Origin: Flavobacterium psychrophilum | Lineage (GTDB): Bacteria; Bacteroidota; Bacteroidia; Flavobacteriales; Flavobacteriaceae | Direction: 5' to 3' | Length of the DNA stretch: 64,000 nt | NCBI GenBank assembly: GCA_945862065.1 | Contig: CAMAWT010000004.1 | Location: 92,104 to 156,103 of the forward strand | Shown: piece after piece, positions 4,854 through 64,000 of the stretch | Numbering within the stretch: the stretch's first letter is position 1 | Layout: each line of letters begins with the position of its first letter | Notes under the pieces: generated by a model | Databases searched by the model: none | What the model was told of the DNA's origin: nothing | Seen by the model: only the letters and a program-made list of their open reading frames with translations | Program-made: the position numbers and the translations under genes

Positions 4854-4864
4854 AGTTTTTTTTT

Positions 4865-5007
4865 AGGCCAGATAGAAGTGGAAAGCTTTATGAAAAAAAC
4901 CTGTATTTTTCTTGGATTAAAATAGCGACCAACGGAAGCTCATTTTAATTCAAAGAAAAAAAGGGTTTTTGAATAAACTTGAAACGAATAGCTGGAAATT
5001 GCTTCTA
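4865..5007 (+). repeat. Dispersed intergenic repeat, copy 1
   Basis: Begins GGCCAGATAGAAGTGGAAAGC and ends GAAACGAATAGCTGGAAATT followed by GCTTCTAA. It shares the ends GCC(C)nGATnGAAGTG and AGCwGGAAAT with the other copies. The internal block GCGACCAACGGAAGCTC is also in copy 6 (38324-38467). The centre can fold into a hairpin. Confidence 0.7.
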
Positions 5008-9202: not shown

Positions 9203-9219
9203 CAAATGATTGATTAAAT

Positions 9220-9318
9220 AGCCCTGATTGAAGGCGATATCCTTGCGTAGTTTACGGAGCAAGATAAAGCCGAAAAGCAGGAAAATGGTTTATAAATAAA
9301 GCCCGAGCCATTTGCTTC
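9220..9318 (+). repeat. Dispersed intergenic repeat, copy 2
   Basis: Starts AGCCCTGATTGAAGGCGATA, carries the middle block CCGAAAAGCAGGAAAAT and ends near GCCATTTGCTTC. It fills the gap between bshA and the GH3 gene and ends six bases from the GH3 stop codon. Confidence 0.75.
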
Positions 9319-22845: not shown

Positions 22846-22878
22846 ATTACTGATTTTGTGTACTTACATTGGTGTTTT

Positions 22879-22985
22879 AACCCTGATTGAAGTGATATCC
22901 TTTGCCTTTTTTTTTCAAAAAGGCAAAGATATAACGGAAAGCAGGAATAGGGTTTATCGAAAAAGCCCTAACCTTTTGTTTCTAA
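22879..22985 (+). repeat. Dispersed intergenic repeat, copy 4
   Basis: Starts AACCCTGATTGAAGTGATAT, includes a strong hairpin CTTTGCC...GGCAAAG (22900-22928) and then AACGGAAAGCAGGAATAGGG and CTAACC. It lies between rhomboid and glmM. Confidence 0.75.
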
Positions 22986-29600: not shown

Positions 29601-29728
29601 TTAAAAGAATTTCAATCCGTTGTTTTATGGAATTTTAATCCGTTTATAATTGAATATTAGATTTTCAAATCAATTAGACATTATAAATTTTTCTACTGAA
29701 AAAAAAAGGTCTATTTTAGCAGGTTGTT

Positions 29729-29808
29729 AGCCCAGATTGAAGTGGAAATCCTTTTGTGTAGCGTCAGCGGAGCAAAAGATTGAAACGGAAAGCTGGAAAT
29801 AGCTCCTA
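29729..29808 (+). repeat. Dispersed intergenic repeat, short archetype copy
   Basis: An 80-base copy: starts AGCCCAGATTGAAGTGGAAA, middle GTGTAGCGTCAGCGGAGCAA, end AACGGAAAGCTGGAAATAGC followed by TCCTAA. It is the most compact version and defines the conserved ends best. It lies 25 bases upstream of the LOG-family gene. Confidence 0.8.
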
Positions 29809-54823: not shown

Positions 54824-54831
54824 AGGAGCTA

Positions 54832-54922
54832 TTTCCTGCTTTCCGTTACAATCTTTTTTGAAAGGGCAATGTAGCAGCCACATAAGCCCTTTCAAAAAAG
54901 GATTTTCACTGCAATCAGGGCT
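54832..54922 (-). repeat. Dispersed intergenic repeat, copy 7
   Basis: On the minus strand: AGCCCTGATTGCAGTGAAAA, inner inverted repeat TTTTTTGAAAGGGC...GCCCTTTCAAAAAA, end AACGGAAAGCAGGAAATAGC followed by TCCTAA. It is near-identical at its ends to the copy at 29729-29808. Confidence 0.82.
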
Positions 54923-54934
54923 AGGATAAATTCA

Positions 54935-60790: not shown

Positions 60791-60871
60791 GGGGAGATAC
60801 TCAAGCGGCCAACGAGGGCAGACTGTAAATCTGCTGTGTAAACTTCGCAGGTTCGAATCCTGCTCTCCCCA
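60791..60871 (+). tRNA. tRNA-Tyr (GTA anticodon)
   Basis: An 81-nt class II tRNA. GGGGAGA (60791-60797) pairs with TCTCCCC (60864-60870), then discriminator A; CCA is not encoded. The anticodon stem GCAGA/TCTGC frames loop CTGTAAA, anticodon GTA at 60835-60837. The T stem GCAGG/CCTGC with loop TTCGAAT is intact, and a long variable arm is present, as required for bacterial tRNA-Tyr. Confidence 0.96.
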
Positions 60872-62584: not shown

Positions 62585-62992
62585 ATGAAAATAAATTATA
62601 ATTTATCTGAAATTGAAACCGTTGTAGGTTCGATTATGGCTGAAAACCCTTCAAAAATCATCCTTTTTAAAGGAGAGATGGGAGTTGGCAAAACAACCTT
62701 AATCAAAGAATTGGCAACGTTTCTTGGCGTTAAGGAAGCCACGAGCAGTCCTACCTTTTCGTTGGTAAATGAATATCTTATTGCTGAAAATCAATACATT
62801 TATCATTTTGACATGTATCGATTGAAACATGAAATGGAAGCACTGGACATGGGCATTGATGATTATTTTTATTCTGGAAATTGGTGTTTTGTGGAATGGT
62901 CAGAAAACATACCGAGTTTGATTCCTGAAGATCATTCGGTTATTTCGATAACGATGTTAGCTGATGGGAGAAGAGAGTTGGAAATGAACTAG
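62585..62992 (+). CDS. tsaE: tRNA threonylcarbamoyladenosine synthesis ATPase
   Basis: A 135-residue P-loop protein that works with TsaB and TsaD to make t6A37 on ANN-decoding tRNAs. Walker A is FKGEMGVGKTTLIKELA, switch-like SSPTFSLVNEY, then HFDMYRLKHEMEALDMGIDD and the conserved WCFVEWSENI. The porX-tsaE order is usual in Bacteroidota. Its right neighbour is a repeat-flanked gene instead of the alanine dehydrogenase gene I recall at this place in related genomes. Confidence 0.93.
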   Translation: MKINYNLSEIETVVGSIMAENPSKIILFKGEMGVGKTTLIKELATFLGVKEATSSPTFSLVNEYLIAENQYIYHFDMYRLKHEMEALDMGIDDYFYSGNWCFVEWSENIPSLIPEDHSVISITMLADGRRELEMN

Positions 62993-63004
62993 TTAACTGA
63001 AAGT

Positions 63005-63137
63005 AACGTTTCGCGGCTTTAAGAAGTTGGGGATTTGTAAGCCCGAAACTTTCGATAAAACACCGAAAATCAAAAGTACAAAACAAACTTTAAATTAAGC
63101 CCTAAAACCCCAATTTCTTAAAACCGCTGTTGGCAGA
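63005..63137 (+). repeat. attC-like imperfect inverted element, left copy
   Basis: Outer AAC (63005-63007), spacer GTTTC, arm GCGGCTTTAAGAAGTTGG (63013-63030), 75-base loop, arm CCAATTTCTTAAAACCGC (63110-63127), T, outer GTTGGC (63129-63134). The arms match at all but two positions, which are transitions at arm positions 5 and 14. The same architecture with the same two differences recurs at 63846-63981, in the same orientation. Confidence 0.75.
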
Positions 63138-63154
63138 TAGCCAGAATATTTATT

Positions 63155-63805
63155 CTATTTCAGAATTCTGTATAAAATCCAAATCACAATGAATATTCCG
63201 CTCAATATTACAATTCTATTTCCTTGTTTTCTGTCATTTTCAGAATATGCATAAATTCGGTTTCCGTTTGGTAATGTTTTTTTAAAAGTTAACAAATGCC
63301 AGCCAATAAATATTCCTAATAATCCACCAAGCAAAGCACAAACGTATCCAATAATTATATAAATATTTTGTCCTTCTTCGGGTTTCGATAATTCGATAAT
63401 TCGTTGTTTTTTTAATTCGTTTATTTGTTCAGTTGTAATTTCGTTTCCTCTTTCTTTCAATAATTTATGAGCAAGTTCTACGTCGAATTTATTCCATTCA
63501 TCACTTTTTTCAATTACATCAATCAATTCTTCGTTTGAAAAACTTAACAAATAATAATCATCTTGAATTTCATTTATTTCTGTTTTCGTTTTTTCACGTA
63601 AAATATCATTTGCTTTTTCGAAGTCATTCTGTTTAATTTTTATGCAATATTCTTTTCCAAATTCGTTATTTGAAAGAATTGGGTCAAAGTTTATTGAAAT
63701 ATTTTCTATTAAAAATTCTACCTTATTTTCTTTAAGTAAACTTCCAATTTCTGTGGCTTGACTTTCAGAGTTAAATTTCTGAAATATTAAAAATTCTTCT
63801 TTCAT
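63155..63805 (-). CDS. DUF2007-like putative signal-transducing membrane protein (repeat-flanked)
   Basis: A 216-residue protein. Residues ~1-75 resemble the DUF2007 fold (MKEEFLIFQKFNSESQATEI, then SLLKENKVEFLIEN and a KQNDFEKANDIL helix). A charged helical middle follows, and two C-terminal membrane helices (IYIIIGYVCALLGGLLGIFI; RIVILSGIFIVIWILYRIL) anchor it. The Lys/Asn/Glu-rich composition is AT-driven. No catalytic residues are evident. It lies alone on the minus strand between two direct copies of an attC-like element, and its promoter appears to lie in the loop of the right copy. Function unknown. Confidence 0.75.
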   Translation of the reverse strand: MKEEFLIFQKFNSESQATEIGSLLKENKVEFLIENISINFDPILSNNEFGKEYCIKIKQNDFEKANDILREKTKTEINEIQDDYYLLSFSNEELIDVIEKSDEWNKFDVELAHKLLKERGNEITTEQINELKKQRIIELSKPEEGQNIYIIIGYVCALLGGLLGIFIGWHLLTFKKTLPNGNRIYAYSENDRKQGNRIVILSGIFIVIWILYRILK

Positions 63806-63845
63806 TAAGTTCAGGTTGTTATTTTCTGCGATTTTTCAACTGGTT

Positions 63846-63981
63846 TCTGCCAACGTTTCGCAGCTACAAGAAGTTGCGTACTTCATTCACTGACTATTAC
63901 AAATATAGACAAAACTTTGATTCAACAATTACCATTTCTGATAATGCCCAAGTCTAGCAATTTCTTGTAACTGCTGTTAGC
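63846..63981 (+). repeat. attC-like imperfect inverted element, right copy
   Basis: Outer GCCAAC (63849-63854), spacer GTTTC, arm GCAGCTACAAGAAGTTGC (63860-63877), 79-base loop, arm GCAATTTCTTGTAACTGC (63957-63974), T, outer GTTAGC (63976-63981). Direct orientation relative to the left copy. The loop carries a minus-strand promoter box. Confidence 0.75.
63900..63928 (-). promoter_or_regulatory. Promoter inside the right repeat loop, facing the DUF2007-like gene
   Basis: On the minus strand: TTG (63926-63928), 18-base spacer, TATATTTG (63900-63907). The transcript would start near 63893 and run ~88 bases through the repeat arm to the start codon at 63805. Confidence 0.6.
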
Positions 63982-64000
63982 GGTTCGGCTTTTTATCTTC

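Follow-up and report, generated by a model that had tools for sequence, protein, structure and literature searches.

The closest described relatives of the locus examined here are integrons, together with the integrase-less attC clusters of the IntI family (CALINs), which resemble it in their cassettes of one gene reading one way, in hairpin sites ending in AAC and GTT, in the pairing of boxes within a cassette and in a tyrosine recombinase with an attI-like sequence at one end. The two ends of an integron cassette pair in the circle, so each site of a linear array takes its outer boxes from two different cassettes; the outer-box consensus of integron attC sites is GTTRRRY. XerC, XerD and archaeal XerA share their catalytic fold with the recombinase described below, which we name REC, but are separate from it in our tree (99/97), and to our knowledge no hairpin cassette arrays are associated with them.

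The definition of an integron given in the accessible parts of PMC2426708 and PMC9668308 includes the IntI-specific domain, and the accessible part of the latter describes IntegronFinder as finding integrases by two profiles, one of them built from this domain, which would explain why REC has been overlooked. An 'Integron-like' subgroup of tyrosine recombinases has been delineated (Smyshlyaev et al. 2021, PMC8138268); as far as the accessible text goes, no sites, cassettes or attI are described for its members. The NCBIfam model NF040815 ('site-specific tyrosine recombinase/integron integrase') scores nine of the proteins considered here, one being the IS91-type L150, at 189-234 bits with 3 of the 9 above its cut-off of 220; its name stands on some public records and is generic, picking out neither the REC clade nor the sites. 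A search of the open-access literature, leaving preprints and most subscription papers outside its scope, found no description of the present system, and an earlier description is possible.

The window, meaning the whole 64-kb stretch of DNA analysed, carries 3' of tsaE two elements in a shared orientation, with 127-nt cores at 63005..63131 and 63852..63978 on the plus strand and a single gene of 216 aa (63155..63805, minus strand) between them. Each copy is laid out as AAC, 5 unpaired nt, an 18-nt arm, a loop, an 18-nt complementary arm, T and GTT, and arm positions 5 and 14 mispair in both. A covariance model derived from 24 sequences, both window copies among them, finds the first copy at E 1.5e-26 and the second at 1.6e-25, and at E up to 0.01 it finds no further site in the 64-kb window, save weaker matches on the opposite strand where the two copies lie. 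The first-pass annotation was right that two attC-like elements of this layout, orientation and mispairing are present; the spans it gave, 63005-63137 and 63846-63981, also take in outer boxes beyond the cores. Its description of the gene as DUF2007-like is not borne out, the 216-aa product matching nothing in Pfam, PADLOC or NCBIfam under the limits applied. Comparison of the window sequence with plasmid DNA gave no lead. Elsewhere the window holds five matches to the Flavo-1 RNA (RF01705), at 4861-5002, 9216-9288, 22875-22952, 29725-29803 (+) and 54828-54926 (-), as well as a single tRNA at 60791-60871.

The element also occurs outside this locus; confinement to it had been named as a finding that would leave mobility unsupported. 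A scan of one genome per species, with a pattern that fixed most of the 5' arm, returned at least 119 stretches, and among the 119 listed three (L004, L014 and L107) come from outside Bacteroidota. When genomes from the listed stretches were searched with the model, sites were found in 20 of the 20 tried, from 3 to 111 per genome (E up to 1e-3). Within the genus Flavobacterium at least 125 of 150 genomes have sites (E up to 1e-3), and in a sample of the phylum Bacteroidota at least 100 of 238 do (E up to 1e-5); both counts are floors, since the large searches applied stricter filters and limited scoring to 14-29 candidates per genome. The sites form arrays, sometimes long ones, as in genome G136, where 36 of 43 matches fall inside 2937417-2973672, and neighbouring sites within 4 kb share their orientation in 136 of 136 cases. 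The site finder gave 256 matches at the threshold used and 0 in reversed sequence, and divergent cores are missed. The core is conserved, including parts of the loop, and its size (median 124 nt) sets these sites apart from those of integrons, as do the outer boxes: GTTRRRY fits only 18 of 302 (15 of 302 in the other direction), which bears out the earlier doubt about this consensus.

The strongest feature of the locus had escaped the first-pass annotation, namely the complementarity of the outer boxes across the gene. GTT-GGCAGA (63129-63137) is complementary to TCTGCC-AAC (63846-63854) at 6 of 6 box positions, so that the box GGCAGA after GTT (63132..63137, plus strand) makes one end of a cassette and the box TCTGCC before AAC (63846..63851, plus strand) the other. 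Across site 2, on the other hand, only 3 of 6 positions are complementary, and across site 1 none of the 6; the left flank of site 1 (62993..63004) is chromosomal and, counting the AAC of the site, ends in GTAAC. Core 2 belongs to the next cassette, whose start reads from the sequence as the outer box AGCGGTTCGGCT (63979..63990, plus strand) and which is cut by the window edge.

This arrangement recurs throughout the family. Counted over 6 positions in 317 contexts, the box that precedes AAC is complementary to the far box of its own cassette at 5.09 (220 of 317 perfect), to the second box of its own site at 2.88 (15 of 317 perfect) and to boxes of randomly drawn cassettes at 2.63 +/- 0.06. 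The contexts come from overlapping loci and were deduplicated by exact sequence, which leaves related cassettes in the set, and the statistics take no account of a tree. The pairing, first noticed in 134 pairs, is weaker at box position 7, absent at 8 and returns at 9-12. Furthermore, the predicted DNA energy of a core folded with the box of its own cassette averages -29.2 kcal/mol vs -22.6 kcal/mol with that of the neighbour, the own-box fold being lower in 283 of 313 cores and higher in 23. Matching end boxes would, if the system is what it seems, provide a simple rule for finding cassettes without knowledge of the enzyme.

The limits of the mobile unit can be read from repeated cassettes. 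Eight identical intersite stretches recur in more than one context, giving 10 pairs. All 10 pairs also share an identical left core but differ in the right core; on the left the sequences diverge 0-4 nt ahead of AAC, and on the right 4-12 nt inside the core. The shared left core and these breakpoints indicate that the unit consists of the left core, the gene, the box and AAC, with exchange at AAC/CG. Similarly, among 19 pairs of intersites of at least 95% identity, mostly from three genomes and hence not independent, similarity is higher in the left core than in the right in 18 and equal in one; two of the 19 link different genomes (L020/L095, 3222 bp, 98.5%; L043/L134, 673 bp, 95.9%). By the same breakpoints, and by the direct-repeat spacing of 847, the window cassette would be an 847-bp unit (core 1, gene, box and AAC) at 63008..63854 on the minus strand. 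Could the element instead be a MITE-like transposon or repeat, inserting next to genes which themselves stay in place? Its high copy number and conserved loop would suit such a repeat, but an element of this kind should move without the adjoining gene, and the core stays with the gene in 10 of the 10 pairs; one-way arrays, box pairing across genes and duplicated units of core and gene with fixed ends speak against it as well, no flanking direct repeats were seen and the breakpoints contradict it, which makes it extremely improbable. The data support placing the window gene in a putative mobile cassette of integron logic.

The content of the cassettes is that of gene-sized units. Distinct intersites (n=314) have a median length of 794.5 bp, and their longest ORF, where it reaches at least 100 aa, runs in one direction in 251 of 256. 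ORFs that cover over half of the intersite (n=200) start at a median of 41 nt from the boundary and stop at a median of 15 nt from the site; the stop of the window gene likewise lies beside site 1. A scan of 110 ORFs (109 cassette ORFs and the window gene) matched 56 Pfam families, those shown mostly once, and 32 PADLOC models, some cassette genes thereby matching candidate anti-phage defence models. A hairpin at such a short distance past the stop codon could also be a structured RNA or a transcription terminator devoid of any role in mobility, and terminator activity is conceivable as a side function; as the whole explanation it has hardly any probability, for it leaves the box pairing across the gene, the duplicated units and the neighbourhood of REC and attI unexplained, and no Rfam family matches the window element at gathering scores.

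The fold of the single site is less uniformly supported than the pairing of the boxes across the gene. In single-strand DNA folding of the plus strand, copy 1 is far better than its shuffles (z -3.4), whereas copy 2 does not go beyond them (z -1.3, 19 of 200 shuffles as good). Measures of the covariation of the arms, which had been proposed from the two window copies, disagree in an alignment whose rows were selected partly for arm pairing: 30 cells changed on both sides vs 9.9 in shuffles, and the covariation score was 0.191 vs 0.091 with 0 of 500 shuffles equally high, but neither the pairs changed on both sides (5 vs 5.5) nor the further pair types (15 vs 13.8) exceeded the shuffles.

The chromosomal setting points to an insertion. 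The left edge of the array is marked by tsaE (62585..62992, plus strand; Pfam TsaE, 5.7e-35), directly followed by ald in relatives. The upstream gene is present in 148 genomes, and in the best 20 of these 148, the closest relatives, no site follows tsaE (20 of 20); ald is matched 61-294 bp after it in 19, and the contig of the twentieth ends soon after an apparent ald start. The relatives examined show the locus without the element, and the window array interrupts tsaE-ald, with its head and right edge beyond the window. In genome G099, picked for a site near tsaE, two sites together with an attI-like sequence separate tsaE from ald, both genes being confirmed by Pfam; since they lie in the opposite orientation, the tsaE-ald spot has been used at least twice. 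The motif GTAACTTG upstream of ald is common to many relatives, and the GTAAC at the left edge of the array in the window suggests that the array was inserted at a spot of this type. Taken with the cross-cassette boxes, the shared breakpoints and the one-way genes, these relatives without the array uphold the earlier proposal of a mobile cassette in a system other than a known integron.

The same proposal had assumed a system without a visible integrase, and here the evidence goes the other way, a recombinase related to IntI standing at one end of many arrays while the corresponding end of the window array is outside the window. The integron-integrase profile gave no match over its cut-off in any of 20 genomes with these sites; many of its best sub-cut-off matches, however, adjoin arrays and skip the IntI-specific region. 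TIGR02249 scores REC at 179-217 bits, with a cut-off of 265 and the middle of the model unmatched, and the IntI-specific additional domain is absent from REC in our alignments, including a reference alignment. The catalytic residues of REC are intact, with invariant R, K, H-x-x-R, H and Y in 17 proteins. Its length ranges from 270 to 590 aa, many members having an N-terminal extension, and this spread suggests N-terminal domains that are variable or repeated. The AlphaFold model of one protein (pLDDT 83) shows an N-terminal beta-beta-alpha-beta-beta-alpha domain, and a weak HARP match was obtained in Pfam for 2 of 17 REC proteins (best 22.7 bits, below the cut-off of 25). The N-terminal length differs greatly among individual recombinases, for example L167, L161 and L149/L154.

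A tree of 56 rows, in which long branches and composition were flagged and 8 of 9 IntI rows are close to IntI1, groups REC, IS91-type recombinases and IntI together (99/97), apart from XerC, XerD and XerA. The IntI rows are monophyletic (100/99) with REC outside their clade; REC and the IS91-type rows form a group at 97/87, and the 26 REC rows without the latter reach only 86/76. Searched against the PDB, the REC profile has XerC-like and XerA chains as its top sequence matches, followed by IntI4. The lack of the IntI-specific domain, the position outside IntI and the fit of only 18 of 302 boxes to GTTRRRY bear on the least unlikely of the rival explanations, an ordinary integron remnant in the form of a CALIN: the cassette logic, the AAC/GTT ends and the one-way genes are the same, but with such boxes, with none of 20 site genomes over the integron-integrase cut-off and with an array-side recombinase of this kind we consider it improbable.

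The association of REC with the sites is marked. REC genes above 350 bits occur in six of the eight genomes searched for both, and seven of these eight genes lie within 10 kb of a site, a zone of 3-5% of each genome (P 8e-10); the exception, L220, has an internal stop. None of 14 other, lower-scoring tyrosine recombinases of the same six genomes lies within 10 kb of a site, a comparison from which the IS91-type copies (six in those genomes, 223-227 bits) were omitted. In the phylum sample (n=238), 59 genomes have REC and sites, 16 REC only, 41 sites only and 122 neither (Fisher p 5e-15). Against an integron-like reading, 41 of 100 site-bearing genomes have no REC match and 16 of 75 REC genomes have no site at the thresholds used, and three REC loci (L166, L167 and L168) are devoid of a recognised site in the stretch retrieved, as is one more with an internal stop; the three may be orphan enzymes or partners of site families that the model misses. 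A set of 19 REC-like loci, of which 16, the IS91-type L150 among them, hold a site, was chosen partly for apparent closeness to sites, and a list of 30 REC genes compiled for adjacency was hand-picked from REC matches and is not counted. On plasmid NZ_CP041688.1 of Chryseobacterium sp. SNU WT5 (L229), REC is accompanied by an attI-like sequence, weaker and stronger sites downstream and accessory genes.

The boundary between REC and the array is a further point of resemblance to integrons. At 16 of 21 REC loci the final cassette that could be recognised closes with its own box and AAC, 45-173 bp from REC, exactly where another conserved sequence takes the place of a core, one mismatch being present in two of the 16 boundary boxes. 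At 14 of the 16, REC is encoded on the strand opposite to the sites and reads toward the array, unlike in integrons, and the boundary is AT-rich, usually with T-x-x-x-x-TAT (exceptions L155 and L165); the two with REC on the strand of the sites contain AAATATACGCAA. Five of the 21 (L152, L157, L164, L197 and L198) have no matching boundary near REC, which counts against the integron-like reading, although L152 and L157 show a similar AT-rich sequence after an AAC near REC. By pattern, 24 distinct AT-rich boundaries were collected over all loci, 22 of them with more than 600 bp of room; 13 of the 22 have REC within 500 bp, every one on the opposite strand and six of them at loci retrieved by the site pattern alone, while 9 do not, again to the detriment of this reading. 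Three AT-rich boundary sequences tested contain direct repeats 43 bp apart and an inverted copy. The AT-rich boundary beside REC qualifies as a candidate attI-like sequence.

We infer that REC is the enzyme acting at the sites. The sites might instead be used by the host XerC/XerD or by the recombinase of another element, REC being a mere frequent neighbour or cargo, as could be argued from the site genomes without a REC match and from the IS91-type elements with their own tyrosine recombinase that abut sites in five places; yet REC is found at the array end, by the attI-like boundary and in a fixed orientation, and not within cassettes, and XerC/D-like genes within 10 kb of a site number 0 of 14 in the genomes compared (IS91-type copies left out), such that we regard this explanation as very improbable. 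At the five places, a second kind of tyrosine recombinase gene 21-75 bp from a site had been considered as an autonomous cassette, a candidate that was rejected, since this gene opens an IS91-type element. The gene after it matches Y2_Tnp in both loci tested (L218 and L005), with Zn_Tnp_IS91 also in L218, and the element end GAACTAAACCTTCGGTAG directly follows the GTT of the site in 4 of the 5 places, the fifth (L005) differing. These elements (L150, L201, L218 with two copies, L005) lie by the sites as if the site were a preferred target. Their recombinases were left out of the REC family; L150 is however included in alignment A2 and in the tree, in the group beside REC (97/87).

Altogether, we propose that what the window contains is the distal end of an array of gene cassettes, belonging to an integron-like system with REC and an attI-like sequence, a reading to which, from sequence comparison, we give a probability of roughly 0.87. 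Read along the cassette genes, that is, on the reverse complement of the window, the layout would be REC, an attI-like sequence ending in GTT, and then units of gene and hairpin site, the head of the array being expected past 64000. Once the cassette is circular, its outer boxes (6 bp, a mismatch near position 8 and about 4 bp more) would pair around the inner stem of 18-20 bp, and the single strand, as the presumed substrate, would fold into a long hairpin. REC would cut at the AAC/GTT boundary and exchange a cassette with attI or one site with another, so that cassettes are captured, excised and duplicated and are presumably expressed, and a cassette or a whole array would occasionally land elsewhere, here between tsaE and ald. 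Such a system would be integron-like in its workings; it is not an integron by the definitions in the accessible parts of PMC2426708 and PMC9668308, because REC has no IntI-specific domain and falls outside the IntI clade and GTTRRRY is seldom found.

A broader proposal, which we hold to be likely with somewhat less assurance, is that of a second platform for gene capture, formed by a lineage that is sister to integrons. Its own recombinase would carry an extra N-terminal domain, weakly HARP-like in two proteins, that may recognise hairpin junctions, and it would have large hairpin sites and an attI-like site of its own, in which repeats are spaced 43 bp apart. It would occur in about 4 in 10 sampled Bacteroidota species, sometimes plasmid-borne, with short-loop archaeal cousins, and would have escaped notice because integron finders look for the IntI-specific domain as a requirement. 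If this is true, a well-known bacterial route of gene shuffling may have an overlooked sister, and a large share of Bacteroidota has an equivalent system stocked with many cassette genes that await study. The IntI-specific domain would then not be needed for cassette logic, the origin of integrons would become testable by comparing two related enzymes, and a new recombinase would be available for DNA tools.

Sites with the same ends and a short loop (~66-80 nt) were observed at L233:1501-1572, L234:1501-1571, L231:523-602 and L107:4019-4084, in genomes of the phylum of a Methanophagales MAG, at least 6 of 120 of which have such sites (E up to 1e-5); they may be archaeal cousins or contamination. 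L231 has a recombinase-like fragment (131 bits) 878 bp from its short-loop site. Finally, the IMG/VR contig L001, from a viral collection, contains one site at 627-747, and such sites may also be carried by phages or prophages.
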